A DNA stretch of 64,000 bases, taken from assembly GCA_025558075.1 (NCBI GenBank), contig JAHLKF010000026.1:1-64000 (forward strand), read 5' to 3'. The notes under the pieces are model-generated. The model made no database searches and was not told the origin of the DNA. It saw only the letters and a program-made list of their open reading frames with translations. Shown here one piece after another: positions 22,524 to 52,374 of this stretch (position 1 is its first letter; each line of letters starts with the position of its first letter). Position numbers and translations under genes: made by a program. The DNA is from Gaertneriomyces semiglobifer. Taxonomy: Eukaryota; Chytridiomycota; Chytridiomycetes; Spizellomycetales; Spizellomycetaceae.

Positions 22524-24322
22524 ACTGCGCAAACTAGGACTGAGTTTAAGGTTAGGATTCAATTCGGGTGGGAGTGATGAATCCGCTGAGAGAGAATCCG
22601 ACTCTGCGCTGTCCCTCTTTATGTTTTTGAGTTTGCCTAAATGGTGGCCAAATGCGCATGGCAATGGCAAGCCACACGTTGTTGTTCACTTTTCCCTGAC
22701 TGACTGATCAGCCTGATCTGCAAAGTGGTCCCTCCTCCTCCTCCTCCTGCTCCTCCCGTAATAATAGCACATGCATAATAGTACGCCGTCATCAACTTAC
22801 GATTGTCTGTCTCTCCACGTATAGTCTACAATATGACGTTTACTTTCCCACTGCGCTCACCACCCGTGCAATACTGATATATCGATGGGGGATATTCCAC
22901 CCTTTTCTTTTTCCAGTTCCACTTTTTTCACTCGCTGTCGTCTTCTCCTCCGATCTCGTATTCTCTCTCTCTCAGGAATAATAACTCTAATCACTCCCTT
23001 ACGCTCAGAAGCATCCAAATGCAAACCTACTCGCACTCCGCCAAGACGACAAGGCGATGATCAATGAAGCAAGGCGATGATGTTCGTTTGCACCGCCGCC
23101 TCCAAAAGGGAAAAAGGGAGGCGACACTTTCAGGCCGCTGCGTGACTCACATTTGAAACACTGCCGCCGCCTCAATGTTAGGTAATGCAACATTCTAGTT
23201 ATCGATCTATTGACGTAACGAGTCACGGGTATCGACCTGGGCGGAGATGACCGCAACCCTCGCTCTCATGGCGTCATCACATATCGCTTTTGGCAGTCAG
23301 GGATCCAGATCATGCAGCGGGGATAAATAACGTAATCCGACGCCGGGACGCGAGACAATTTTGCTCATGTCCGCATCCGGTTATCGGTAACCTCGCTGTC
23401 AGCCCAACGGCACAGTCATGAAAGCATGCAAGTTCGTCGCGAGGGTCGCTCAAAAACGAAAATTTTGGGTTGCGGTTTACTTTTGCGTTGTGTTGTTTGC
23501 GTTGGTGTGAAATTTGACTGCCGTTCGAACCAACCAACGAAACGGGGCAGCCTGCCCCTGCGATGCAACGATGTGCGATCCATACGACGAGTATTATTAA
23601 CTGTTACGACGGCCCCGCATCGCATCGCAGCGTTCGTGTGCGTTGTGTTTGCGCTGCATTTTTTGTCGCGTTGAGAATTGGCTCATTGCGCATAGCTCAG
23701 AATTGAACAATCGCAGGTCAAGGGACCGGAATTGCGACGCTGCGACCTGCGTTTGTTGTTGACTGTTCTGATAATATTAATCAGGAAGCGACAACGACCT
23801 GGTGGTGGACTGTTGTTCCCGGACTCGAAATTCTCGAATCATCACTCGCATCGCGAACGAAACGGGAATTCGAAGCGCGGCAGCGTCCCAGGAAATCGTG
23901 AGAACCTGAAATTCCCTCGACGATCTGTTGTTCTACATCTTCTGCGGCCGCATTCCGTTTTCGTTTTTAAAGGAACCGGTTCGCACGCTCCCGCTCTCCG
24001 CTTTCCATCAATAGATGGATTCCACTTAGATAACAACTTTTCCACCCGCACTCGTCGGACCTGATATATAAAGCTGCTGGCACAGCTGCACACACACACA
24101 CACACACACACTCTCCCTCGGCGCACTCATCACCTTCCAACACTCAGAGAGAGAAGCGGGACAGGTACCTTCTTCTTTTTCTTTGTGGTCTGCTTGTTTG
24201 TTTTGTTTGGCTTGGCCCAAACACTGATTAGCTTAATAGAATAGACTAGATATATACGGTTAGTTTAGCGGTACTTTTCTAATTCGACGCCCCGGTTAAA
24301 CGCCCAATTCAAGTTAATCATA
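22524..24322. other. Divergent intergenic region (Pus1-like / fungalysin)
   Basis: 1.8 kb separating two divergent starts. It contains CT-rich runs (22731-22757), several short non-convincing frames, a TATATAAAG element at 24063-24071 and a CA dinucleotide tract. The first 147 nt upstream of the Pus1-like ATG are open in the Pus1 frame and may be leader. Confidence 0.4.
24089..24111. repeat. CA dinucleotide microsatellite
   Basis: An uninterrupted CA run of about 11 units in the fungalysin promoter, about 210 nt before its ATG. Confidence 0.9.
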
Positions 24323-27277
24323 ATGGTCAAGTACACTGTCCTTGCCGCCGCTGCGGCTCTCACCCTGTCCGCCCAGTCCCAGGCGGCCCCGGCACCTTCA
24401 TACAACTCGCCGGCAGTTCCCGCTTTCACCAGAGAGGCCTCCTTTAACACCTATGGAACAGCCGGTGCTCAGCTGCCAGAAGGCTTTGGTGACTTGGACG
24501 ACAGCGAGCTGGCTCTCGCGTTCTTGTTGGAAAAGACTCCCGGCCTCACAAGAAACGATCTCTTGGTCACCGATGAATACGTCACCGGTAACATCCGAAA
24601 GATCTACATCCAGCGCTCCATCAACGGTGTCCGTCTGTCCAACCAGGTCGCCAACATTGCCATCAGGGATGGCAAAATCATCTCATTCGGTTCCTCCATC
24701 GTCTCTCCCGCCAACTCGCTCACTGAGCCCGTCATCGATCCCCCAAAAGTCACAGTGGACGCTGCGCAGGCCGTCGCGAACGCTGAAAGGGTTTTGGGAT
24801 TGAAGAAGAACGACATCGAGCCGTACCTTCGTTACACTGAAACCGCCGAAGCCAAGTACAAGTACGTGTGGTGCTTCCAGGTGCGCAACGAAGTTGAGGA
24901 CCCCAACTTCCAATGGTTCGAAGTCGACGTCGCTGCCGATTCCGGAGAAATTGCTGCTACCTACTCTTGGGTCGCCCACGCCGCACAGTACTCGGCTGTC
25001 GACTTTCGTTCCAAGGACCCGAACCCAGACGACCACCTGATCACTCACGGTGACCTATCGTTGAAGAACGCGAGCCCCAATGGCTGGCACGACAACAACA
25101 AACAGACCAGCGGAAACAACGTCATCTCCTTCCGTAAGCAAGGATCGGAAAGGTTGTTGGTGAAGGGCAAGGGCGCTGAAGGCGATCAGTATGTCGCACC
25201 GTACGATCGCACCCAAAGCCCCAAAACACCCGAGCACCAGGACCTTGCGGTCATCAACAACTTTGTCACCGTTAACCGCATCCACGACCTTCTGTACCAA
25301 TACGGATTCACCGAAGACGCAGGCAACTTCCAAATCGACAACTTTGGCAAGGGTGGTAAGGGCGGCGATGCCGTCACTGTCTCTGCCCAAGATCCCGCTG
25401 GTGTCAACAATGCGGATTTCACCACTCCGCCTGACGGCCAAGCTGGTGTCATGCGCATGTACATCTTCACCTCCACCAACCCCAACCGTGACGCATCCTT
25501 GTCCAACGACGTCACCATTCACGAATATGTCCATGGCCTGAGCAACCGTCTTACCGGCGGTCCCGCTAACTCCAACTGTCTGCAAACCTTGCAGAGCCGT
25601 GGTATGGGTGAAGGTTGGGGTGACACCGTAGCCATCTTTGTTCAGCGTGATGCTACCCAGACGCGCAACGACGATGCCACCGTCGGCTCATGGGTCACCA
25701 ACAACCGCAACGGTATCCGCGCCAAACCCTACTCCACCGACTTCTCCCGCAACGACTTGAAGTATGCCAACATTGCCAGCATGACATCCGTCCATCAGGT
25801 TGGTACCGTCTGGGCCACCATGTGGAACGAGGTTTTCTGGAACTTGGTCGACCAAGCTGGCTTGGCTGAAGACATCTTCAACGCCCAGCAGGAGAAAGGA
25901 AACGTCATTGCCCTGCAATTGCTCGTGGACGGTCTTGCTCTTCAGCCGTGCAACCCCACCTTTGTGCAAGCGAGGGACGCCGTCCTTCAGGCCGAGCAGA
26001 CCCGCTACGGTGGAAAGTACAAGTGTGCGATCATCAAAGGATTTGCAAAGCGTGGATTGGGTATGCGTGCCACCTCGACTCCTGCGAACGACGAAACTGT
26101 GCCTCCAGAGTGCGAGGGTCCTGTCACCCCCAACCCAGAGCCCACTACCACCGTTGCCGTACCCACCGCTGAACCTACCACTGTTGCTCCTACCGTTGAG
26201 CCTACTACCACCGTGGCTGAGGAGACCACCACTGTTGCCCCTACCGTTGAGCCTACTACCACCGTGGCTGAAGAGACGACCACTGTTGCCCCTACCGTTG
26301 AGCCTACTACCACCACCGTGGCTGAGGAGACCACCGTTGTCGTTCCTACCACCGAGGTTGAGCAGACCACCGCCGCTCCGGCACCTACTACCGAGTTGGT
26401 ACCTGGTACCACTCAAGTTGAGCAGACCACCGCTGTCGCAACTACCCTTGCCGTTCCTGAGCCTCAGTCTACCTCCGCTGATGTCCCTGCTACTACCGTA
26501 GCTGCACCTGAGACTACCACCGCTCCCGACGCGCCCAAAACGACTGCTGCCGAGGAGCCCTGCACCACGGAGACTGTTGTTGTGCCCAGCGCCAGCACTG
26601 ACGTGCCATCCGTTCCTGGAACCACTGACGCCCCATCTGTCCCTGCCCCGACGACTGTTGCTGGCGAGGAGCCCTGCACTACGGAAACTGTTGCTGCGCC
26701 CAGCGCCAGCACTGACGTTCCATCCGTTCCCGGAACCACCGACGCCCCATCTGTCCCTGCCCCGACGACTGTTGCTGGCGAGGAGCCCTGCACTACCGAC
26801 ATCGAAGTTGTCCCTGTACCCACCACCGTTGCCGGCGAAGAGCCCTGCACTACCGACATCGAAGTTGTGCCCGCGCCTAGCAACACTGCTACTGTTGGAG
26901 CTCCCGAAGTGACCGTTCCTGCTTACAAAGTCCCTGGCCCAGCCTCTCCCGCACCATCCAGCGTCCCTGCCGCTGTCCCGACCAAAGTTCCGGGCCCTGC
27001 CTACCCTGCACCCCCACAACCTACACAGGGCACTCCATACCAACCCCCTGCTGGATCTATTCCTCCCGTGAGTGGATCCGTTCCTCCCGCTGATGGATCC
27101 GTTCCCGCTGATGGATCCATTCCTCCCGTTGGTGGACCGTCCCAGGAGGAGCCCAATAAGCCAGTTGTTGGCGACAATGGTGAGGCCGAAGTACCGATCT
27201 TCAGCTCAGCGCACAGGAGTGTCGGTGTTCCCTCCGTAGTCAGGTTGGCTTTCGGTGTGTGGAAGTTGGTGTTCTAG
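24323..27277 (+). CDS. Secreted M36 metalloprotease (fungalysin) with Thr/Val/Pro stalk
   Basis: Zinc endopeptidase of the fungalysin family, secreted as a pre-pro-enzyme. Single exon, 984 aa. A signal peptide occupies about residues 1-21 (VLAAAAALTLSA, cleaved near SQAAP). An FTP-type propeptide runs to about residue 230. The catalytic domain holds the zinc motif HEYVHG (His about 400, Glu 401, His 404) and the downstream GEGWGD providing the third ligand near residue 430. Ordinary fungalysins end near residue 600-640. Here a further ~350 residues follow, made of Thr/Val/Glu/Pro repeats, two near-identical CTTE-containing copies and Gly/Pro/Ser blocks. The last residues are hydrophobic (VRLAFGVWKLVF), which could be a GPI-anchor signal. 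That would place the enzyme on the cell wall. Confidence 0.94.
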   Translation: MVKYTVLAAAAALTLSAQSQAAPAPSYNSPAVPAFTREASFNTYGTAGAQLPEGFGDLDDSELALAFLLEKTPGLTRNDLLVTDEYVTGNIRKIYIQRSINGVRLSNQVANIAIRDGKIISFGSSIVSPANSLTEPVIDPPKVTVDAAQAVANAERVLGLKKNDIEPYLRYTETAEAKYKYVWCFQVRNEVEDPNFQWFEVDVAADSGEIAATYSWVAHAAQYSAVDFRSKDPNPDDHLITHGDLSLKNASPNGWHDNNKQTSGNNVISFRKQGSERLLVKGKGAEGDQYVAPYDRTQSPKTPEHQDLAVINNFVTVNRIHDLLYQYGFTEDAGNFQIDNFGKGGKGGDAVTVSAQDPAGVNNADFTTPPDGQAGVMRMYIFTSTNPNRDASLSNDVTIHEYVHGLSNRLTGGPANSNCLQTLQSRGMGEGWGDTVAIFVQRDATQTRNDDATVGSWVTNNRNGIRAKPYSTDFSRNDLKYANIASMTSVHQVGTVWATMWNEVFWNLVDQAGLAEDIFNAQQEKGNVIALQLLVDGLALQPCNPTFVQARDAVLQAEQTRYGGKYKCAIIKGFAKRGLGMRATSTPANDETVPPECEGPVTPNPEPTTTVAVPTAEPTTVAPTVEPTTTVAEETTTVAPTVEPTTTVAEETTTVAPTVEPTTTTVAEETTVVVPTTEVEQTTAAPAPTTELVPGTTQVEQTTAVATTLAVPEPQSTSADVPATTVAAPETTTAPDAPKTTAAEEPCTTETVVVPSASTDVPSVPGTTDAPSVPAPTTVAGEEPCTTETVAAPSASTDVPSVPGTTDAPSVPAPTTVAGEEPCTTDIEVVPVPTTVAGEEPCTTDIEVVPAPSNTATVGAPEVTVPAYKVPGPASPAPSSVPAAVPTKVPGPAYPAPPQPTQGTPYQPPAGSIPPVSGSVPPADGSVPADGSIPPVGGPSQEEPNKPVVGDNGEAEVPIFSSAHRSVGVPSVVRLAFGVWKLVF
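26140..27125 (+). repeat. Thr/Pro-rich repeat stalk within fungalysin
   Basis: In-frame tandem repeats: four copies of an EPTTTVAEETT-type unit of about 45-48 nt (26155-26340), two copies of a ~126-nt unit starting with the CTTE block (26556-26810), then DGS/PPV repeats. Near-identity between copies at silent sites points to recent duplication. Confidence 0.75.
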
Positions 27278-28155
27278 ATTTTACATTTGTGAGCTTGGAC
27301 AAATAGTGATTCAACAGACTTTGAGGAGAGTGTATAGGACTTTTTTGGTTAGTTCTGTAGACAACCTGTAGACGATCGGAACGTTTTTTTTTTTTTTTTC
27401 GTCTCATAGGCTCGTTTGGCGTCATGTTATAATTTTGGTAATGAAGATTCTATAACCATTACCTGCAAACAGTTGTTCCCAAAGGCCAAAAAAGCGCGAG
27501 TTGAGCTGAACGAATGCTTACGTACTAACTCCGCCGCCCGCTGAGATAATCTGTAATCGATATGCGCAACACGTCACTGGTGTGGGACACGTCCCCGCAA
27601 CGCCTTTTGCGCACGCCCCCAAGTCTCGCGCCGCCGCTCGTCCGTTTTCCCCTTTCGCATTTCGTCAACGAACAAGAACACACACACTCGACGACGCTAA
27701 ATATATCATAAAAGACCGAACGCAGGCGGGTGGACCCCTCCCAACTGAAGACAGGGTAACTACTATTCATGGCCTGCACGGTGGTGCTATTCACGACGGC
27801 TGATTAAAAGGGCCCTAGCTCGCTTCGTCAATACAAGTTTCTCGCCGAATCCGTGGGAGTACATTTGAAAGCAGAACCTCAGTTAGACGCTGAAAGAGAA
27901 AGTTTGCCCAGGCGATCCCCGAGTCATTCATTCGTACACCCTGTCAACACATACAAGATCCCTACTAAGCAAAAAGTCAATCTTGGAGGATTTTTGGGTT
28001 TCTTGTTATCGCAAAGAAGAGAGAGACACCATCAAAAAAGAAAGAGGAACGACTGGATTCTCACCATCACCCTGCCTCGACCACCTTCCTTGTGGAAACA
28101 TTTGATAGTTATATGACCTCTACTGTCCGTGCGCTTAGTACAAGTTCATAGGAAA
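27278..28155. other. Intergenic region after fungalysin
   Basis: No gene seen. Includes a 17-nt poly-T tract at 27384-27400 in the fungalysin 3' region, and small open frames without family resemblance. The end forms the leader of the next membrane-protein gene. Confidence 0.35.
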
Positions 28156-33661: not shown

Positions 33662-36600
33662 ATGCTGTGGAGAACATGGCTTCTCCTCATTCAAATCTTG
33701 AGCTTTGGTGGAACATGTGTATGGGCGGACATTTACATGCGTAAGTGGCAATGCGACTGGTACCTTCGCCATTGACTCATGTACTCATCGTCCTATTAGA
33801 CAACCCTCGTGGCTCTAACAACAAGCTCAATGAACAGAATAACAACCGCAATAATGGGAACCGCCTTTTTGACAGTCAAAACAACGGGAACGGTGGATAC
33901 AACCATGGCGACAAGTGTGACGGCCCATGCCATGGCAATGGCAACGGGGAAAACGCGGAGTATAACAAAGACCTTCCCGGCGCCGGAGAAGGAATCATGG
34001 AGTTCTATGAAGGGAGTGAGCTCCAGGTGGAGTGGACGAACCAACATGGGTGCGGCTTAAATCCTCGATTGCACTGCAATGTAGTGATGCAGTACATGTG
34101 CGAGGATTCGGCTCCCGGTTTACGCGATGGAACGACCACTGACACGATTCCTGTCATCGACGCAGACAATATTGTTTATCCCAATGACTGGCTCACCTAT
34201 GGTCAACATGAGCCGTTTTGGTATTACAATCAATGCAGCGTCCGACCCCGGAACAAGGGCCTGTTCCTTGCGGACCGCAATTTGGGAGGCGGACAAGCTA
34301 CGGCCAGATACACTCGCCAGAACAATGGTGGGACTCGATATGGGTACGAATGCCCTGAAGAAAAAGACTACTATCCTTACTGGCACCCAACTCCTTGGAG
34401 AGATATTTATACGTGCACAGATGAGCCGGCGCGATGTAGTTATTACCGCGAGCAATCACAGAATGTCGTCAATAAAGGCAATTGCAGTCTTCCAAGTTAT
34501 AATGTCAAGTTGGACTGCGAAAATGCCGGAGGACGTTGGGAATTCGTGGGAAAATGGAACATGGATAAACCGGAATGTGGAATATGCCCCACCACTCGCA
34601 ACAACCACCTAGGTGAAGCGTCTAACTCTCCTGGTCAAGGACCGCATTATACGTGGACGATTCCGGAAGATCTTCATCCGGATGGAGCTCTCTGCGTTCT
34701 CCGTATTCGGTACAACATCTCGACATTCGATTACGACGGTTGGTCTACCGACTCCTTGTTCAATGGCCAAAACTCAAAGGTCAAGGGGAACCCCACGAAC
34801 GACTTTGTTGGTCTCGGGCAGAACTCGTCTGGACCGCTCACGCTCAACATCAATACTGCTCAGTTCGGGCGGACTTTTCAGGACCGTTCGCATGTTTTCC
34901 GAATTCGTAAGGCCCCAAAGGACCTCAAGCGCAACTTTATCGGTACCAGCAAGATCATCAACCTGAACGTACGCGGGCGCCGCGGGAATATTGTTCAAGT
35001 CTACCCATCCGTTGAGTACGACTTTGTGCCCAATACGGTAAATGCCAAAAAAGGAGATTTTCTGCATATCCAATGGGTCGGGTCTGACTCCAATCCTAAT
35101 AACGATGGGAACGGCCGTATTCGCACAGATCGCAGCAATCTGGTCCTTGTCAGCTCTCAAGGCGTAAATTACCCACTGAACATTAACCCAGATGGTGCCT
35201 CGGCCCCAACGCATTTCACCAATCACCGAGATATTATCTCGCGTCTGGCGTATCTCGACCAAACAAATTGCGACTTGACGACTAATGATGCCAATGATAT
35301 TCGCAACTGTGGACGGTTGAATAGCGCACCCGCATATTTCAATGCAGGGTTGGTGAGGATTGATAACACGGGCACCTTCAACTTGATCAGCACTCGAAAC
35401 AATGCGTTCTCCAATCGAGAACAAAAAATGACCCTTAAGGTCAGCCAGGATATGGCGGCCATCGGAGCCGCAATTGGAATTGCTGTCGCAGGAGTGGCTT
35501 TTCTTGCAGGTACGGGATATGCAGCTGTTGGTGTGGCAGCATATGGCTTGGCAAACCCGGGCACCATGGCTGGAGCTGTTGTGGCGTTCCTGGGCATCAA
35601 GAAGCGTCAAAAGAAGAAGCGTAGCCCTGACGTACTGGAAGTTGGAGAGGCGGAGAAGAAGGTTGGATGGCTTCGCGCTAAGCTTCAGAAGCTTTGGTGG
35701 TGGGAAGGACCGCGAATCATGGTGGTCGGTTTGTACACACTCGCAAACATCATCGTGTGGATCTACGGATGGGCTTCGAATAAGGACGTGTCACCCGCCC
35801 CATACTTTCCCTACGCCAAAGGCTTTGGAAAGATGCTCAACGTCAACTGCTCGTTCATTATTCTACCAGTTTTGCGCAATATCCTTTGCTGGCTACGTTC
35901 CACGCCCGTCGCTGACATAATTCCCTTGAATGACAATATTAAGATGCACAAGATCGTCTTTGGCTTCACAGCTTTTGGAGGACTTGCTCACGCGACACTC
36001 CATTATCTCAACTTCGCTTGGGCTCACCAACGCTTCGGCGAGAGCATTGCCAAACAAGCCCTCGGTAATCTTGTCGGCATCACCGGACACCTGATTAGCT
36101 TCATCATGCTTCTTATGGCTATCACGGCGTTCTTCAACCGGAAGTTGATCAACTGCTTTGGCCGCAGGTTCGACGGTTACCGTACCTTTTTGCTGGTACA
36201 CAAGTTGTGGATTCCCTGCTTTGTTTTTCTCTGGCTCCACGGTCCGCAGTTCTGGGCGTTTTCCATCTGGCCATTGCTGCTCATGGGAATGGAGAAAATG
36301 GTTCAAACGTCCCGCGCAAGGGTTGACGTCGCGATTGTGGAAGCCAAGATTGTTGGGCGCGATGTCCTTGCTCTCAAGATGAAGCTCCAGAGCAAACGCA
36401 AATTCGTTTACAAAGCTGGAGAGTACCTCTATCTCAATTGTCCTCAAATTGCAGAACTCGAATGGCATCCTTTTACCATATCAAGTGCCCCGGAGGACGC
36501 TTATTTCAGCTGCCATATACGCTGCAGACCTGACATGGATTGGTGCTTTCAGCTGAGAACATTGCTAGGCCTAGCATCAAGCGACAAAGCCGCCAAGCCG

Positions 36601-37311
36601 ACCGTAAATGTAGTTGCGTCCGCGGACATTGAGAAGAGCGCCAAAGCGCCAGATTCATTTGGAGGATATCAAGGCCCAACTGCGGAGGCGGAAAGAAGTC
36701 TGGTGCGTCTTCGTGTGGATGGGCCATACGGTAGCCCCTCAGAGGAAGTGTTTGACCACGACACGGTCGTTCTTGTCGGCGCTGGAATCGGCGTTACCCC
36801 ATTCATCTCCATTCTGAAGTCAATTAGCATCCGAGCACGCCAGCGGGAGATCGCAGGGTCGATGGACAACCTTCAGCAACAAAGCCTCAAGGTGTACTTT
36901 TACTGGATTTGCCGTGATGAGCAGGAATTCCACAGCTTCAAGGATCTCATTGACGCAGTTATTGATTCCGCCGACTTGAAAGACAGTCTGCAAGTGAACA
37001 CATATACAACTGGCGTGAGTGTTTTCATTGACTACATCGCCCTGAGGCGTGTTTTTTTAACTTTGGGATTGCAGGAATTGAACTTGAAGCAGGTGAAGCT
37101 GGAGAGATACAATCAATACTCTGGAAAGCCTAATTGGGGCCGGATCTTGAAAGAAATTGCAGGCGATCATCAGGGTGAAGAGATTGGCGTGTTCCTATGT
37201 GGCCCTCCAGCTTTGGCACGCGAACTGCAGGCATCCTGCAAGCGTCAAAATCAAACTGCCAACAAGCTGAACAGCAAGACGATTTTCAAATTCCATAAGG
37301 AAAGCTTTTAA
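33662..37311 (+). CDS. DD3-3-like ectodomain fused to NADPH oxidase (NOX)
   Basis: Predicted plasma-membrane oxidase that moves electrons from cytosolic NADPH via FAD and two hemes to outside oxygen. Exons: 33662-33740, 33800-37014 and 37075-37311. The second intron (60 nt) has no stop and keeps frame, so a read-through form is possible. The product is about 1176 aa. A signal peptide is followed from residue 24 by an ectodomain of about 550 residues beginning YMHNPRGSNNKLNEQNN, the hallmark start of DD3-3-type proteins of Dictyostelium and oomycetes. Hydrophobic segments near 580-625 lead into the ferric-reductase/NOX domain with heme His pairs (MHKIV/HATLH and VHKLW/WLHG), FAD motif HPFTISSAP (about 917), NADPH motifs GAGIGVTPF (about 1021) and FLCGPPAL, and a C-terminal Phe as in NOX enzymes. 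There are no EF-hands. Confidence 0.88.
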
Positions 37312-39389: not shown

Positions 39390-40301
39390 ATGTCTTCTGT
39401 ATCTGAAATCAAATCTTGCCCGTGCGGTACTACATGTACCTGTGTCGCTGCATCCACCTCGGCGAGCTGCCCCTGCAAAGGTCAATCCAGTGATAAGGTC
39501 CGCTCTGAAGGGTGCAAGTGCGGAGACAAATGCGCATGCCCGCCCGGTAACTGCACGTGCGGCCAAGATGACAAGAAGGTTCGCTCTGAAGGGTGCAAGT
39601 GCGGAGACAAATGCGCATGCCCGCCCGGTAACTGCACATGCGGTCAAGATGACAAGAAGGTTCGCTCTGAAGGATGCAAGTGTGGAGACAAATGCGCATG
39701 TCCGCCCGGCAACTGCACTTGTGGCCAAGACGACAAGAAAGTCCGCTCTGAAGGGTGCAAGTGTGGAGACAAATGCGCATGTCCGCCCGGCAACTGCACT
39801 TGTGGCCAGGACGACAAGAAGGTTCGCTCTGAAGGGTGCAAGTGCGGAGACAAATGCGCATGCCCGCCCGGTAACTGCACATGCGGTCAAGATGACAAGA
39901 AGGTTCGCTCTGAAGGATGCAAGTGTGGAGACAAATGCGCATGTCCGCCCGGCAACTGCACTTGTGGCCAAGACGACAAGAAAGTCCGCTCTGAAGGGTG
40001 CAAGTGTGGAGACAAATGCGCATGTCCGCCCGGCAACTGCACTTGTGGCCAGGACGACAAGAAGGTCCGCTCTCAAGGGTGCAAGTGCGGAGCGAGCTGT
40101 GCATGTCCTCCGGGCCACTGCACTTGCGGTCAAGATGACAAGAAGGTTCGCTCTGAAGGATGCAACTGCGGAGACAAATGCGCATGTCCGCCCGGCAACT
40201 GCACTTGCGGTCAAGGCACCAGCAGCTCCAAATCATCCAAGGGCTGCTGCGACTGCTGCGGTGACAATTGCGGATGTCCTTCCGGCAAATGTTCCTGCTG
40301 A
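39390..40301 (+). CDS. Large tandem-repeat metallothionein
   Basis: Cys-rich metal-binding protein, expected to chelate Cu, Zn or Cd in the cytosol. Intronless, 303 aa, 68 of them Cys. After a short Cys-rich head (CPCGTTCTC) come eight full 27-residue units and a ninth terminal unit (from residue 36). Each contains C-x-C-x3-C-x-C-x4-C-x-C. A tail of GCCDCCGDNCGC type closes the protein. There is no signal peptide. Most fungal metallothioneins are 25-80 aa, so this is a strongly amplified version. Unit 8 differs (SQGCKCGASC), as does unit 9. The ATG at 39390 is the first in frame and follows a clear TATA box. Long frames in other registers over the same bases arise from the 81-nt period. Confidence 0.93.
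   Translation: MSSVSEIKSCPCGTTCTCVAASTSASCPCKGQSSDKVRSEGCKCGDKCACPPGNCTCGQDDKKVRSEGCKCGDKCACPPGNCTCGQDDKKVRSEGCKCGDKCACPPGNCTCGQDDKKVRSEGCKCGDKCACPPGNCTCGQDDKKVRSEGCKCGDKCACPPGNCTCGQDDKKVRSEGCKCGDKCACPPGNCTCGQDDKKVRSEGCKCGDKCACPPGNCTCGQDDKKVRSQGCKCGASCACPPGHCTCGQDDKKVRSEGCNCGDKCACPPGNCTCGQGTSSSKSSKGCCDCCGDNCGCPSGKCSC
39495..40212 (+). repeat. 81-nt tandem repeat array coding metal-binding units
   Basis: Nine in-frame copies of an 81-nt unit. A higher-order period of 243 nt (three units) is visible: the block starting near 39651 recurs almost exactly at 39894, including silent-site differences between units. That indicates a recent three-unit duplication. Confidence 0.88.
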
Positions 40302-44347: not shown

Positions 44348-46216
44348 CTAATCATCATTGGCGTCGTCATCTTCGACATTGCGGAAGGGAATCGCTGGGG
44401 GAATGATACTGTTGGTCGGGCGGATGGAAACGGGTGAAATAACTGGCAAAGTCACTGTGACGGTTGTGGTCGTCGTTGCCAACTCAGTCGTGGTGGTAAC
44501 ATCGGTGGACGTTGCAACGTCGGTTGTGGTAAAATCCGTAGACGTTGCAAAGTCGGTTGTAGTTACTTCTTCCGTAGTAGTAGGAGTGGGGGCATCTTCC
44601 TCGAGATCGAACCACTTTGCACACTTCTTCTTCCACCAGTCCTCGTCACGGCGGGCGCGCACAGGAGTCGGCGTAATGGACGGAATCAAGGTAGGAATTG
44701 CGGGGAGAGGAGCAATGGTGACAGGGATGATGTCTCCGTCAGCAGTGGCAGTGGCTGTCCAGACCGCAGTAATGGCTGCGCTGGGCGATGGAGAATCCTG
44801 GCGCTTCTTGAGAGGAAAGACATCTGCGGGTGTCGGAAGAAGGTCCCAGTAAGGCTCAGTGGCAGTTGCTGTGGCGGTTGCAGTTTCCTCCTCAATGATA
44901 TCATCATCCTCATCCTCATCTTCATCATCATCGCTATGACGCTTCTTGAATGGTAAGACGTCTGCGGGTGTGGGAATGATGTCCCAGAACGAGTCGGTCG
45001 CCGTTGCTGTTGCGGTGGCAGTCTCTTCACCGAAGATGTCGTCGATAATGTCACCAAGTTGACGCTTCTTCAGCGGAATGCCTGCGGGTGTAGGAATGAT
45101 GTCCCAGAACGAGTCGGTCGCCGTTGCTGTCGCGGTGGCAGTCTCCTCCTCAATGATGTCGTCGATAATGTCACCAAGTTGACGCTTCTTCAACGGGATG
45201 CCTGCAGGTGTAGGAATGATGTCCCAGAACGAGTCGGTCGCCGTTGCTGTCGCGGTGGCAGTCTCTTCACCGAAGATGTCGTCGATAATGTCACCAAGTT
45301 GACGCTTCTTCAGCGGAATGCCTGCGGGTGTAGGAATGATGTCCCAGAACGAGTCGGTCGCCGTTGCTGTCGCGGTGGCAGTCTCCTCCTCAATGATGTC
45401 GTCGATAATGTCACCAAGTTGACGCTTCTTCAGCGGAATGCCTGCGGGTGTAGGAATGATGTCCCAGAACGAGTCGGTCGCCGTTGCTGTCGCGGTGGCA
45501 GTCTCCTTCCCAATGAAGTCGTCGATAATGTCACCCAGTTGACGCTTCTTCAACGGAATGCCTGCAGGTGTGGGAATGATGTCCCAGAACGAGTCGGTCG
45601 CCGTTGCTGTTGCGGTGGCAGTCTCCTCCCCGATGAAGTCGTCGATAATATCACCCAGTTGACGCTTCTTCAACGGAATGCCTACGGGTGTAGGAAGGAT
45701 ATCCCAGAACGAGTCGGTCGCCGTTGCTGTCGCGGTGGCAGTCTCCTCCCCAATGATATCGTCGATAATGTCGCCAAGTTGACGCTTCTTGAGTGGGAGA
45801 ATGCCTGCGGGTGTAGGAATGTCCCAAGAGCCAGTAGCTGTTGCTGTTGCAGTGGCAGTCTCCTCCTCAACGAGGTCGTCGATAATGTCACCTAGTTGAC
45901 GCTTCTTCAGCGGAATGCCTGCGGGTGTAGGAATGATGTCCCAGAACGAGTCGGTCGCCGTTGCCGTTGCAGTGGCTGTCTCCTCCCCGATGATGTCGTC
46001 GATAATGTCACCAAATTGACGCTTTTTCAGCGGGAAGACGTCTGCAGGGGTCGGAAGGATGTCCCAGAACGATTCGGTAGCCGTCGCTGTCTCAGCGATT
46101 GCTGTAGTGTCAATGGCGCGCCAGTCGACTTGACGACGGTGGATGTTGTACGGCAGGGCGAAGGCGGAGCCTGCAATTGCCAAGGCGAACAGTTGGGTCT
46201 TCATGTTGAGCAACAT
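44348..46216 (-). CDS. Secreted Kex2-site repeat precursor protein (KEP-like)
   Basis: Intronless, 622 aa from the ATG at 46216 (a second in-frame ATG at 46204 gives the core signal peptide). Signal peptide MKTQLFALAIAGSAFA is followed by HRR at residues 26-28. Eleven units then end in KKR: residues 29-66, 67-106, 107-145, seven more of about 40 residues to 426, and an acidic 46-residue unit at 427-472. Kexin is known to cut after Lys-Arg or Arg-Arg in the Golgi. Ten of the eleven residues after KKR are Gln. Each unit has an acidic DIIDD block, an ETATATATAT run, a conserved aromatic-Trp-Asp core (FWDI), then PTP and a hydrophobic residue before KKR. A 150-residue tail follows with RARR and a Thr/Val-rich region. 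It is a likely precursor of secreted peptides; a structural surface role like Ustilago Rep1 is the main alternative. Confidence 0.88.
   Translation of the reverse strand: MLLNMKTQLFALAIAGSAFALPYNIHRRQVDWRAIDTTAIAETATATESFWDILPTPADVFPLKKRQFGDIIDDIIGEETATATATATDSFWDIIPTPAGIPLKKRQLGDIIDDLVEEETATATATATGSWDIPTPAGILPLKKRQLGDIIDDIIGEETATATATATDSFWDILPTPVGIPLKKRQLGDIIDDFIGEETATATATATDSFWDIIPTPAGIPLKKRQLGDIIDDFIGKETATATATATDSFWDIIPTPAGIPLKKRQLGDIIDDIIEEETATATATATDSFWDIIPTPAGIPLKKRQLGDIIDDIFGEETATATATATDSFWDIIPTPAGIPLKKRQLGDIIDDIIEEETATATATATDSFWDIIPTPAGIPLKKRQLGDIIDDIFGEETATATATATDSFWDIIPTPADVLPFKKRHSDDDEDEDEDDDIIEEETATATATATEPYWDLLPTPADVFPLKKRQDSPSPSAAITAVWTATATADGDIIPVTIAPLPAIPTLIPSITPTPVRARRDEDWWKKKCAKWFDLEEDAPTPTTTEEVTTTDFATSTDFTTTDVATSTDVTTTTELATTTTTVTVTLPVISPVSIRPTNSIIPPAIPFRNVEDDDANDD
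44801..46132 (-). repeat. 120-nt tandem repeat array coding Kex2-delimited units
   Basis: Eleven in-frame units; seven of them (about 44,980-45,780) keep an exact 120-nt period with very few differences even at silent sites. Unit 2 lacks one codon, unit 9 gains one, and unit 10 has an inserted acidic run. Variation concentrates at three positions in the DIIDD-xx-xE segment (I/L/F, I/V/F, G/E, E/K). Confidence 0.9.
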
Positions 46217-47878: not shown

Positions 47879-50290
47879 ATGCCCCAAACCGCTGTTAGTC
47901 CACCCAAAGTCCAACCGGCTTGGAGAACCGACCTTGATCATCTCCGCAAGTCGAATCCGGTATTCCCAACAAAAGCCGCCGTTGCTGTTGCGGCGATTAG
48001 TGCATCTCCGGCAAAACCAATCAATGGCCATGTTACGCCCCAGGTAGTCTGCCATGGTCGTGTCACAGATCTTGAAGAAATGGTTCCTTCCCAGTGGTGG
48101 AAACATGTTTTCGCTGACGAAATGTATCTAAGGACGGACGGTGATATGGTTGAAGATCCGGAAATCACCAAAGAGGAAGTTGGATTACTGGAACAAGATG
48201 AGGAAGTGATGAAAATTTTCTTACGTGGAACTGATCATGGTCCGCAGGGTTAGTACTTTGCTTCTACTTCGACGTTGGCTGTGGAAGATCAGGAAGGATG
48301 AAAGTGAACATTAGAATTGTGTGGTTGACCCTATCCTTATCACATAGGTCAACCTGCGAGAATTTTGGATCTTTGCTGCGGACAAGGTCGCCACATCTTG
48401 CACCTAGCACAAAAGTATCCACACATTTCTTTCCATGGACACGATCAGTCTTCCTTCCTTATCCAACTTGCGCAGCACCGTTCTGCTGCCCAGCATGCGA
48501 CGAACAACACGGTCTTCACAGTGGGTGATTGTCGCTCGATTCCATATCTTGAAAACAGTTTCGACCTTGTGATGGTAATGGGAAATTCATTTGGGTACTT
48601 CTCGGATGAAGACGGAGACAAGATCGTGCTGAAGGAAATAATGCGAGTTCTTGCGCCAGGCGGTAGGGTCATTTTGGATTTAACGGACGGGGAGTACATG
48701 CGAGACTATTACGCCGAACGAAGCTGGGAGTGGATTGATGATGCCACGTTTGTTTGTCGAGAAAGACAGTTGAGCAAGGATGGGAAGCGGTTGGTTTCCC
48801 GTGAGGTGGTCAGCTCAACTACTAAAGGGGTGGTCCGTGACCAGTTCTATCAGGAGCGCTTGTACAGCAAGAGTGAAGTTGAGGCGCTTGTGAAATCCAT
48901 TGGATTCTCTGTTCTTCCTGGCAAGAAGCAGACGGACATTGTCGCGCTCGGAGATTTGAGTAAAAGAAAAGAAGATCTAGGTATGATGGAGCAAAGGTTG
49001 CTTCTTACTGCTATGAAGCCCTTGCTCTATGAGAACGGAGTGAGCACTGGAGCCAAAAAAGTGAATGGTCTGCAAACTTACACCAATGGGATTGCGCACA
49101 GATTGCCAAACGGGCATTCAGCTGGCGTTAGTAGAAAAGTTTCTGCGGAGACCGACTTCAAGTGGAACGCAGATGCGGCGCCACCGTCGTTCCCACATGT
49201 TACGGTGTTGCTCGGGGATCCGTCTCAACGATGCATCGGCAAGCTGAATGATAACTGGAATCCCGAAGATTTTGAGACTCGGGACAAACTACTCCAAGCA
49301 CTGAGGGATCTTGGGTTTCCTTCGAGTGCTATCTCAGTTTTGGACAAGCACGACAATTATCTTCGGGAACTCAGCGAGCGTCATTCCACTTTTGTGTTCA
49401 ACCTTTGCGATGAGGGCTACAACAATGATGCTCTACAAGAGCTTCACGTTCCCGCCTTACTAGACATGCTAGATTTGCCGTACTCGGGTGCAGGCCCGAA
49501 TTGCCTAGCTTACTGTTACGATAAAGGATTGGTTAACCGAACGGCGGCCGCCATTGGCGTTGCAACGCCGAAGGAGACATTCTATTTTGCCGATTCTGCA
49601 CCAGAGAAGGAAACGTTACATGCAACTATATCTTCTGACATTGGATACCCGGCTTTCATCAAGCCAGTGAAAGGCGACAACTCACTTGGAATCACTACCC
49701 GCTCTATTGTACATAATGAGGAGGAGTTGGATACCTACATGGACGAGCTGCGAAGCCTGGGTATCAAGGACGTCATTGTCCAAGAGTATCTTCAAGGGAG
49801 CGAATACGGCGTGGGAATGGTCGGCAACAAGGAGATGGGCTTCCATTTCTTCCCAGTACTGGAAGTCGATTACAGCCAGATCACTTCCCAGAACCTTCCG
49901 CCCATTTTAGGCTACGAATCCAAGTGGGATCCAACCTCACCCTACTGGACAGACATCTCATACAAAAGCGCATCGCTTCCTGAGAGCACCATCAAGCAAT
50001 TGCAACAGTGGTGTGTAATGCTGAACGAACGCTTCGGTTGTCGCGATTACGCCCGCTTCGATTTCAGAGCGGATGCAGAGGGGAATATCAAGCTCCTTGA
50101 AGTGAACCCGAACCCCGGTTGGTGCTGGGACGGGAAGATGGCTTACATGGGCAAGCTGGAAGGCCTAGACTATAAAGACGTGATTGGGATGATCTTGAAG
50201 GCGGCCTGTGATAGACTTCGCCTGGAGAACGGAAATAAGGCGACAGACAAACTAGAGCTGGAAGCTCAAAAAGGAACTTTAGGACATTGA
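47879..50290 (+). CDS. Class I methyltransferase fused to D-Ala-D-Ala ligase-like ATP-grasp enzyme
   Basis: Two exons: 47879-48248 and 48348-50290, with a 99-nt phase 1 intron. The product is 770 aa. After about 120 residues of unclear role comes a SAM-dependent methyltransferase (motif I ILDLCCGQGRH at about 128-138; acidic GHDQSS; VMVMGNSFGYF; LAPGGRVILDL) to about residue 345. A D-Ala-D-Ala ligase-type ATP-grasp domain covers about residues 400-760: FNLCDEGYNND, LPYSGAGPNCLA, the ATP-binding YPAFIKPVKGDNSLGI, VQEYLQGSEYGVG, and the metal-binding end LLEVNPNPGW. ATP-grasp ligases join a carboxylate to an amine or similar group. Fungi make no D-Ala-D-Ala peptidoglycan, so the substrate is something else, such as an amino acid or peptide product. 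No signal peptide is seen. Confidence 0.88.
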
Positions 50291-50499: not shown

Positions 50500-52374
50500 A
50501 TGGGAATGGCTGCAGCCATAGCTGTTCCAGAAGAAAGTGGGACCCTTGCGACCGATACCAACATGCCTGTCCCCACTGTTACAAATATCAGATACCAATC
50601 TACGTCAGCATATCCGAACTACGAGGAGGAGCTTTCAGAATGTCTGCAGGAGCAGTTTGAGGATGAGGATTTGGCATGCATCAACGGTAACGGAACTCTT
50701 AGTGACGGTGACTACTGCACGAACCGTGTCAAAAGACAACGCCGCCCCAAACAGCCTGGCCACCGAAAAGCTGCCCCCACATGCCCTCTACCAGCATCAG
50801 GCGCATCGTCACCCGACAGTAACCGTTCATCGCTATCTGCAAAGTCCGATAACACGCCCTCAGGCGCGGTACATGCCAGCTCCTCAATACAAGTCATGAG
50901 AACTGGGAAATGGTCAGATGAGGAACAGAAACGCTTCCTTGATGGACTGGAGACGTTTGGCCGGGATTGGCATGCGATTGCTCGGTACATTGGCACACGG
51001 CCGGTCACTCTCATTCGAGCGCGTGCATCAAGATACTTTGCTCGCCTTTACCTCGCCAGCAAGCCTCTACCAGCCAAGGTCCGAGAATCAGGACATGGAT
51101 ACACTGTTAGTGGAAAACCACTCCTGTCAAGCTCTCCCACATTGACTAGTATTTACCGTGGTGCGATCGATCCGTCTACGTTACCTTCTCAAGATGGTGC
51201 CAGCCCTTTGGTGGTGGTCCCCACGATAAAGAGAGAACAGGCCAAGGGAAAACTGAAAGGCCGGCCATATGTTGAGTTCAAGGTCCCTAAACCACAATCG
51301 AAGCGCAAGCGCAGTGTGAGCCCTCATGACAATCCAATTGGTGCGGATGGTCGAACAGATTATGTTCGGAACCGACCTAGACGAGAAGCCACGAAGAAGA
51401 AACGACAGTATGCAGAAGATGAATACCATTTGCTACCGTGTCCACGATTCCGAAACTCGCCGGGTGACGGTCAACTCGGCAGCCAACCTTATCAGTTGCA
51501 AGTGGAGCGAACTGCTATAGCAGTCGTCGATCTCCATTCACATCTACTTGATACGGAGGTGGTTGGTCTTCTTGCGGGCACATTTGATGCCGAACAAAAG
51601 CTCTGTACTATCAAAACTGCTTTCCCTGCCCAAAGGAAAGTAATAGACGCAGACACTAGTATCACTGTTGAGGAATCTCTCGCAGAGGCTTTGTCGTTGG
51701 CTGACTCGCTGGGAATGCAAATAATGGGCTGGTATCATAGTCATCCGGTCTTCCATACGAACCCAAGTCAAATGGATGTTCAGACGCAACATGTTCATCA
51801 GAAGGCTTTTGGTGGATACCACCAAGACGACGACCGGACGCAAGCTGGTGAACAAAAAGACTGGAAGCCATTTCTTGGTGCCATTTGTGGGCCATATCAC
51901 CAAGCTCTTCCTTCTTCTACATCTGACTTCACCTGGTTCATCCTACCAGATGCATCGAAACCACTGCCACGATCACTTGATTATGTTTTGCTTGGCTTAG
52001 AGCGGATTAAAACCGAAGGACTTAGCCGAAAAGATTTCAACAGCATGATTGATCTGATACGATCTTTTAAAATCGATCGGCATGATGAGGAGCGCGTGGA
52101 TTTCACTGAAAAGTGGAAGAAGAAGCAACTTAGAGTAGAAAAGTGTGTGAGAAGTCTGAGGAGCTGGCTCACAGATTTCGAAGATCCGTCGACAGAAGAG
52201 ATTCAGCCAAAGGCATCAAACCACTTCATCCCCGTCGAATATGCACTGGAACGGATTGCGGATGAACTGCAGAACTTTAAGTGCGCTTCGGCCAATTATG
52301 ACAATGGGGCGAATGCACAGCTCAGCAGTAGCGGAAGTGGGGACGATGCTGGGATCGGGCTCAATAGCGTCTAG
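50500..52374 (+). CDS. MYSM1-like SANT + JAMM deubiquitinase
   Basis: Intronless, 624 aa. A Myb/SANT domain lies at about residues 134-185 (GKWSDEEQKRFLDGLETFG, then WHAIARYIGTR). An MPN+/JAMM metalloprotease domain lies at about 330-480 with every zinc and catalytic residue: Glu in TEVVGLLAG, then H-S-H, seven residues, S-x2-D (GWYHSHPVFHTNPSQMD). This order matches animal and plant MYSM1-type enzymes that remove ubiquitin from histone H2A. The SWIRM domain normally between them is not recognisable; a basic Lys/Arg-rich stretch replaces it. A helical C-terminus follows. Nuclear location is expected. Confidence 0.86.
   Translation: MGMAAAIAVPEESGTLATDTNMPVPTVTNIRYQSTSAYPNYEEELSECLQEQFEDEDLACINGNGTLSDGDYCTNRVKRQRRPKQPGHRKAAPTCPLPASGASSPDSNRSSLSAKSDNTPSGAVHASSSIQVMRTGKWSDEEQKRFLDGLETFGRDWHAIARYIGTRPVTLIRARASRYFARLYLASKPLPAKVRESGHGYTVSGKPLLSSSPTLTSIYRGAIDPSTLPSQDGASPLVVVPTIKREQAKGKLKGRPYVEFKVPKPQSKRKRSVSPHDNPIGADGRTDYVRNRPRREATKKKRQYAEDEYHLLPCPRFRNSPGDGQLGSQPYQLQVERTAIAVVDLHSHLLDTEVVGLLAGTFDAEQKLCTIKTAFPAQRKVIDADTSITVEESLAEALSLADSLGMQIMGWYHSHPVFHTNPSQMDVQTQHVHQKAFGGYHQDDDRTQAGEQKDWKPFLGAICGPYHQALPSSTSDFTWFILPDASKPLPRSLDYVLLGLERIKTEGLSRKDFNSMIDLIRSFKIDRHDEERVDFTEKWKKKQLRVEKCVRSLRSWLTDFEDPSTEEIQPKASNHFIPVEYALERIADELQNFKCASANYDNGANAQLSSSGSGDDAGIGLNSV

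Follow-up and report, generated by a model that had tools for sequence, protein, structure and literature searches.

A candidate KEX2-processed repeat protein with eleven tandem units in the soil chytrid Gaertneriomyces semiglobifer

Gaertneriomyces semiglobifer is a soil chytrid of the Spizellomycetales (Chytridiomycota), and the stretch of its DNA considered here, called the window in the following, comprises 64,000 nucleotides. On its minus strand, a single open frame runs from ATG to stop at 44348-46216 and encodes 622 amino acids plus the stop, so that no intron is necessary to read it; the original prediction had coordinates, strand and frame right. The product begins with a hydrophobic start, MLLNMKTQLFALAIAGSAFA, which is followed by HRR, by eleven units each ended by KKR, and by a tail of 150 residues. 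The succession of HRR and eleven units of about 40 residues, with Gln after 10 of the 11 KKR, had also been foreseen and was confirmed by reading the sequence, the units having 38-46 residues. The features are as follows, taken from sequence reading for HRR, RARR and the units.

44348..46216, minus strand: whole precursor frame, 622 aa plus stop, one open frame
46157..46216, minus strand: probable signal peptide, residues 1-20, hydrophobic FALAIAGSAFA, likely cut after AFA (hydropathy only)
46133..46141, minus strand: HRR, first dibasic site, residues 26-28, Gln next
46019..46132, minus strand: unit 1, 38 aa, divergent, TA run shorter
45899..46018, minus strand: unit 2, 40 aa
45782..45898, minus strand: unit 3, 39 aa, lacking the Phe of FWDI
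45662..45781, minus strand: unit 4, 40 aa
45542..45661, minus strand: unit 5, 40 aa
45422..45541, minus strand: unit 6, 40 aa
45302..45421, minus strand: unit 7, 40 aa, same DNA as unit 9
45182..45301, minus strand: unit 8, 40 aa
45062..45181, minus strand: unit 9, 40 aa, same DNA as unit 7
44939..45061, minus strand: unit 10, 41 aa
44801..44938, minus strand: unit 11, 46 aa, His and an acidic run replacing QLGDIIDD at its start
44351..44800, minus strand: C-terminal tail, 150 residues, beginning with Gln, Thr-rich end, no hydrophobic GPI-type terminus
44648-44659, minus strand: RARR, the 13th site, residues 520-523, within the tail, Asp next

The signal peptide is judged by hydropathy alone: the N-terminus reaches a 12-residue mean of 2.1 and carries the AFA motif. 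Elsewhere, the mean over 19 residues does not exceed 1.69, a value reached in the tail around residue 496, where the stretch contains five prolines. The tail contains a decayed unit-like stretch as well, TAVWTATATADGDIIP, recognized by eye. A sequence search of the whole genome (20.86 Mb, 66 contigs) found no second copy of the precursor. A scan for repeat precursors over the whole 281,991-bp contig, one of the 66, which would miss intron-split ones, returned four frames: the precursor gene, the frame antisense to it, and one off-frame reading in each of two repeat-bearing neighbours. One of these neighbours (39390-40301, plus strand) encodes a Cys-rich, metallothionein-like protein of nine 27-residue tandem units (KVRSEGCKCGDKCACPPGNCTCGQDDK) with a higher-order 243-bp period, for which the Pfam family of plant PEC metallothioneins stays barely below its cut-off (31.6 of 31.8 bits). 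The other (24269-27280, plus strand), named by eye, is a fungalysin-like metalloprotease frame with a long Thr/Pro-rich tandem-repeat tail of 51- and 114-bp units. Three further genes on the plus strand are to be mentioned. At 33745-37311 lies a large protein whose C-terminal part (residues about 700-1165) has ferric-reductase/NADPH-oxidase domains and whose N-terminal half has no Pfam match; at 48329-50290, a fusion of a SAM methyltransferase with an ATP-grasp domain of the D-Ala-D-Ala-ligase type, which is kept in many chytrids and found also in bacteria and a choanoflagellate (among the best 120 of 5506 matches); and at 50500-52374, a protein with Myb-like and JAB/MPN domains, which we take to resemble the histone H2A deubiquitinase MYSM1. 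The precursor gene is flanked by a potassium transporter at 40.5 kb and by the methyltransferase/ATP-grasp fusion at 48.3 kb.

The KKR ends of the units fall at residues 66, 106, 145, 185, 225, 265, 305, 345, 385, 426 and 472, giving lengths of 38, 40, 39, 40, 40, 40, 40, 40, 40, 41 and 46 for units 1 to 11, and their consensus is QLGDIIDDIIGEETATATATATDSFWDIIPTPAGIPLKKR. In an alignment of ten rows, in which unit 9 is omitted since its DNA equals that of unit 7, the rows show 70-95% identity to unit 7 and 18 columns are invariant, including most of the TA run, WD, PTP and KKR. In 10 of the 11 units, the TA spacer has one and the same length. Differences between units interchange bulky hydrophobic residues, L/F at position 2, I/F/L/V at 9-10 and I/L at 28. 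A constant FWDI-x-PTP core, as had been proposed, is found as FWDI[IL]PTP in nine of eleven units, but not in unit 3 (SWDIPTP) and unit 11 (YWDLLPTP). Without KKR, seven of the eleven predicted peptides would measure 37 residues, within an overall range of 35-43, and the charge would be -5 to -8, or -17 for unit 11. For the 40-residue units, the calculated monoisotopic masses of the trimmed pyroglutamyl peptides are 3857.878 (units 2, 5 and 8), 3895.914 (units 7 and 9), 3856.930 (unit 6) and 3851.924 (unit 4); the Gln forms would be heavier by 17.027, and every O-mannose would add 162.053. Helical amphipathicity of the head is weak, being reached by 8.6% of shuffled sequences (4.2% for an 11-residue core), and in the TA run strand alternation does not reach significance (6.6% and 38%).

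How are the presumed cleavage sites placed? The precursor has 13 sites of kexin type, and Leu or Phe, which are good residues for kexin at P4, stand at this position. Of only 12 Gln in the whole protein, one belongs to the signal segment and the other 11 are all found directly after a kexin-type site, so that Gln occupies P1' in 11 of the 13, namely after HRR and after ten of the eleven KKR; the exceptions are His after the tenth KKR and Asp after RARR. The dipeptides following the sites are QL, QF, QV, QD, HS and DE. KKR occurs 11 times in the protein, whereas 10,000 shuffles gave 0.04 on average and never more than 2, and the hypergeometric probability that 11 of 11 post-signal Gln fall on 13 P1' places is 9e-22, a figure in which the units are treated as if they did not share an ancestor. 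Thus, the pattern does not come from chance. It bears also on the idea that the product is an O-mannosylated wall or matrix protein which stays uncleaved or partly cleaved, with KKR as elements of spacing or charge. Wall proteins often contain repeat arrays, and the Thr-rich tail and the TA runs resemble, by eye, stretches for O-glycosylation. However, that all post-signal Gln stand exactly behind sites, that KKR is invariant in all the aligned units, and that P4 is Leu or Phe all speak against such a protein; as it also has no C-terminus of GPI type and the genome encodes kexins, we consider this idea improbable.

Does selection act on the DNA or on the encoded peptide? Among the seven units of 40 residues (21 pairs; the four units of other length were left out), pN/pS is 0.137 as encoded, while reading with the frame shifted gives 1.00 and 6.86, and variable columns fall on codon positions 1, 2 and 3 in numbers of 6, 2 and 15. 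Since unit pairs are not independent of each other, the pN/pS figures are descriptive and not tests, but their direction is plain. Differences are mostly silent in frame and not in the shifted frames; therefore, the encoded unit peptide is under selection. The TA run, which one might take for a microsatellite of the DNA, gives the same answer: in the same 21 pairs, its differences are 28 silent and no replacement, and over all the TA runs of the protein the Thr codons ACC, ACT, ACA and ACG are used 17, 16, 13 and 10 times. With the residues conserved and all four codons in use, the run is not a DNA microsatellite, and the dipeptide repeat is maintained at the protein level. It had been stated that silent-site identity shows recent homogenisation of the units. 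This holds for a part of the array: the DNA of units 7 and 9 is the same at all 120 bases, and over the first 219 bases units 7-8 agree with units 9-10 at 216, so that they look like a recent two-unit duplication. In each of the remaining 20 pairs of 40-residue units, between 1 and 9 of the 40 codons show a synonymous difference, and a wholesale recent event is not supported; homogenisation among the units is partial.

Relatives of the precursor were sought in several collections. In one protein collection, none of 8000 scored candidates matched the full protein at E <= 1, their number being capped, probably because of words from the TA run, and none of 247 matched residues 1-79 at E <= 10. 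This collection includes proteins of G. semiglobifer and of many chytrids; thus, for sequences of the lengths that the search admitted, it appears to lack annotated orthologues and even the product of the gene itself. Annotation may have passed the gene over or given it a very different model, and unannotated orthologues may exist elsewhere; such genes can be absent from public protein sets. Solved structures gave no relative at E <= 1, and Rfam no match in the window. Pfam returned DUF1547 (7.6e-14), DUF7874 (4.5e-07) and CHD1-like_C (0.0012), the former two above their own cut-offs and the last below. We take these as artefacts of repeats and composition, because they cover 21-47 residues in differing parts and no stretch passes alone. 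The claim that the unit belongs to no described family stands as far as the one protein collection reaches.

Is the architecture, then, also without precedent? To count as a KEX2-processed repeat protein (KEP), a protein has to carry a signal peptide, to be free of membrane spans, to fall into four or more fragments on cutting at KR/RR, and to contain three or more similar units (Le Marquer 2019, PMC6339444). Here we have a signal-like start, 13 sites, 11 similar units, a tail past the last site and kexin genes in the genome, and the precursor would therefore fall, as far as tested, under the published definition; it differs from known KEPs in its unit sequence, which has no match in the protein collection searched. 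The original view that such families are described mainly from Dikarya is not supported: KEPs are reported from nearly all fungi, those of Chytridiomycota tending to give long peptides (PMC6339444), and 178 were counted in 14 of 19 Chytridiomycota strains (Umemura 2020, PMC7329392). The genus is not named in those passages of the two main texts (PMC6339444, PMC7329392) that were searched, and the supplementary tables may list this very protein. It appears, thus, that the class of architecture was already known, and that the unit sequence and its species context are new.

If the precursor is to be processed, the genome has to supply the enzymes. The question of whether a kexin homologue is encoded at all had been raised with the original prediction, and the answer is two loci with a P domain (PF01483), on contigs C9 and C27, both with a hydrophobic stretch after it as for a membrane tail. 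The C9 locus gives pieces of an S8 pro-domain, a subtilase and the P domain, and its best solved relative is kexin (3.3e-35). The same three kinds of domain are found at C27, and furin and kexin are near-equal among solved relatives (1e-67 and 1.4e-67). Judged by these matches, the genome encodes two kexin-type proteases. Serine carboxypeptidases are found on C1, C3 and C19, that on C1 being of carboxypeptidase Y type (1.3e-131). The first exon at C19 has KEX1 as its nearest solved relative (3.1e-17), with a slim margin over carboxypeptidase Y (2.8e-16), and, read across one 54-bp intron, the gene continues to YYAGAILLILMLLGIALCAFHH, a membrane-spanning tail as in Kex1; from its reading, this is a membrane-tailed Kex1-like carboxypeptidase. 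Family M28 has ten matches in the genome. Among eight of its loci examined, one on C3 was compared with solved structures, the others being read by eye, and its best relative there is glutaminyl cyclase (7e-72). It has an N-terminal hydrophobic segment, which could be a membrane anchor or a signal peptide; the Golgi isoenzyme of mammalian glutaminyl cyclase is membrane-anchored. In Neurospora crassa, glutaminyl cyclases are located in the ER, ahead of kexin, which exposes Gln in the Golgi (PMC5241404), so that enzymatic cyclisation would need a cyclase in the Golgi. Cyclisation can also be spontaneous, as KEP peptides made in Pichia, which has no cyclase, are partly pyroglutamyl (PMC9769878). 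Two kexin loci, a Kex1-like carboxypeptidase and a glutaminyl cyclase thus provide a candidate enzyme for each step of the processing, and they support the prediction of a secreted, kexin-processed precursor. In the same genome survey, two loci of 3537 bases each, L017 (C1:745137) and L018 (C38:85760), are identical base for base, so that either this stretch was duplicated recently or the assembly contains a redundant contig.

The original prediction had likened the precursor to those of dikaritins, RiPPs in which UstYa-type or neighbouring enzymes would cyclise or otherwise modify the units into a toxin-like metabolite. The layout of the precursor is alike, and the methyltransferase/ATP-grasp fusion gene is found at a distance of 2.1 kb. 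This fusion gene is common to many chytrids and bacteria, however, and is thus not tied to the precursor gene. Tyr, the residue cyclised in ustiloxins, occurs in only one of the eleven units, is absent from units 1-10, and is not conserved in the core; dikaritin cores are also far shorter than units of this length. UstYa had no matches in the genome, as it had none in the control genomes either. With no conserved Tyr, no UstYa found by a search whose control is silent, and a neighbour conserved across chytrids, such a route is extremely improbable, and the likeness is not upheld.

With the frame, the units, the pattern of sites, the selection and the presence of the enzyme genes established, we consider, with a probability of about 0.8, that the gene encodes a precursor of processed secreted peptides, a KEP of G. 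semiglobifer. The precursor would enter the secretory pathway, and kexin in the Golgi would cut it after HRR and after every KKR. A Kex1-like carboxypeptidase would then remove KKR, and the N-terminal Gln of ten units would be converted to pyroglutamate by glutaminyl cyclase or spontaneously. O-mannosylation is probable on the TATATATAT stretch. Eleven acidic peptides would be secreted, seven of them with 37 residues and all within 35-43, each made of three parts: a QLGDIIDDIIGEE head, a (TA)4T spacer of fixed length and a DSFWDIIPTPAGIPL end. Having pyroglutamate at one end and a Pro-rich stretch at the other, they are expected to resist exopeptidases. Peptides of this kind have a counterpart in animals: the TRH precursor is a multi-copy prohormone whose products have N-terminal pyroglutamate and are made by convertase, carboxypeptidase and cyclase. 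Dibasic sites flank the copies in both proteins, with Gln next to the site, and the types of enzymes would be the same, while the present protein has no Gly for amidation before the site; homology is not claimed. Among fungi, KEP peptides of Coprinopsis cinerea were found with N-terminal pyroglutamate, and its genome encodes glutaminyl cyclase (PMC9769878). Gln at P1', with cyclisation predicted here, and a cyclase in the genome are common to both species, but the Coprinopsis peptides have 7-21 residues and sequences unrelated by eye (PMC9769878).

What are such peptides used for? Among known systems, Rep1 of Ustilago maydis, with which Hum3 of the same fungus is grouped here, is the closest in layout. 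Rep1 has 652 aa with 12 repeats of 34-55 aa, and it gives ten peptides of 35-53 aa and one of 228 aa that form amyloid-like surface fibrils (PMC4617103); the present precursor has 622 aa, 11 units, trimmed peptides of 35-43 aa and a tail of 150 aa. The likeness found is one of layout: a sequence relation to Rep1 was not detected in the search of the protein collection, where Rep1 was perhaps not among the candidates scored, and the units of the precursor differ in being strongly acidic and weakly amphipathic. That the peptides work like Rep1 is nevertheless the leading guess for their use, and a tentative one. We would accordingly prefer, at somewhat less than even odds, a peptide made in bulk for the surface or the extracellular matrix, like the repellents of Ustilago, over a ligand of a receptor, because the interchange of bulky hydrophobic residues and the fixed length of the TA spacer are tolerable in a physical assembly or interface. 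Against this role, the charge of -5 to -8 (-17 in unit 11) would disfavour self-assembly at neutral pH, and the weak amphipathicity of the head and the non-significant strand alternation of the TA run speak against it too.

The main rival to the surface role is signalling, by which the peptides would be multi-copy, prohormone-like ligands capped with pyroglutamate and acting on a receptor, as a pheromone or as a signal of zoospores or of density. The multi-copy dibasic layout, Gln at P1' and the near-identity of units would fit it, and so would the clustering of the 18 invariant columns in the TA run and WD/PTP; Le Marquer et al. suggest signalling roles for KEPs (PMC6339444). Precursors of the ascomycete alpha-factor are likewise multi-copy and processed by kexin and Kex1, as predicted here, but the units are far longer in our case: 35-43 residues exceed the 9-24 given for alpha pheromones (PMC6339444). 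Neither XA nor XP, the dipeptides recognized by STE13, follows the sites, although the DPPIV-type (STE13-like) family occurs at two places in the genome. STE2 and STE3 families were not matched in the genome, which weighs little, as the controls were silent too, and the free swaps among I, F, L and V would fit a physical role better. A receptor ligand seems to us, thus, rather unlikely. Another possibility would be a membrane-active peptide like candidalysin, in view of the predicted release by kexin and the partly amphipathic head. Lytic peptides are usually helical and either cationic or neutral, while those predicted here have a net charge of -5 to -17 and a Pro-rich end, and this use is very improbable.

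Returning to the surface role, a more far-reaching form of it would be that pyroglutamate-capped, O-glycosylated three-part peptides, private to the lineage and all cut from one polyprotein, coat the cell or its rhizoids as a repellent-like coat which replaces hydrophobins and arose in a zoosporic fungus independently of that in Ustilago; this picture is quite unlikely in its entirety. The gene is a clean object for testing, since it offers eleven copies, exactly predicted ends, Gln at the borders and identified candidate enzymes. If the products exist, they would, to our knowledge, be among the few processed KEP peptides shown in any chytrid.
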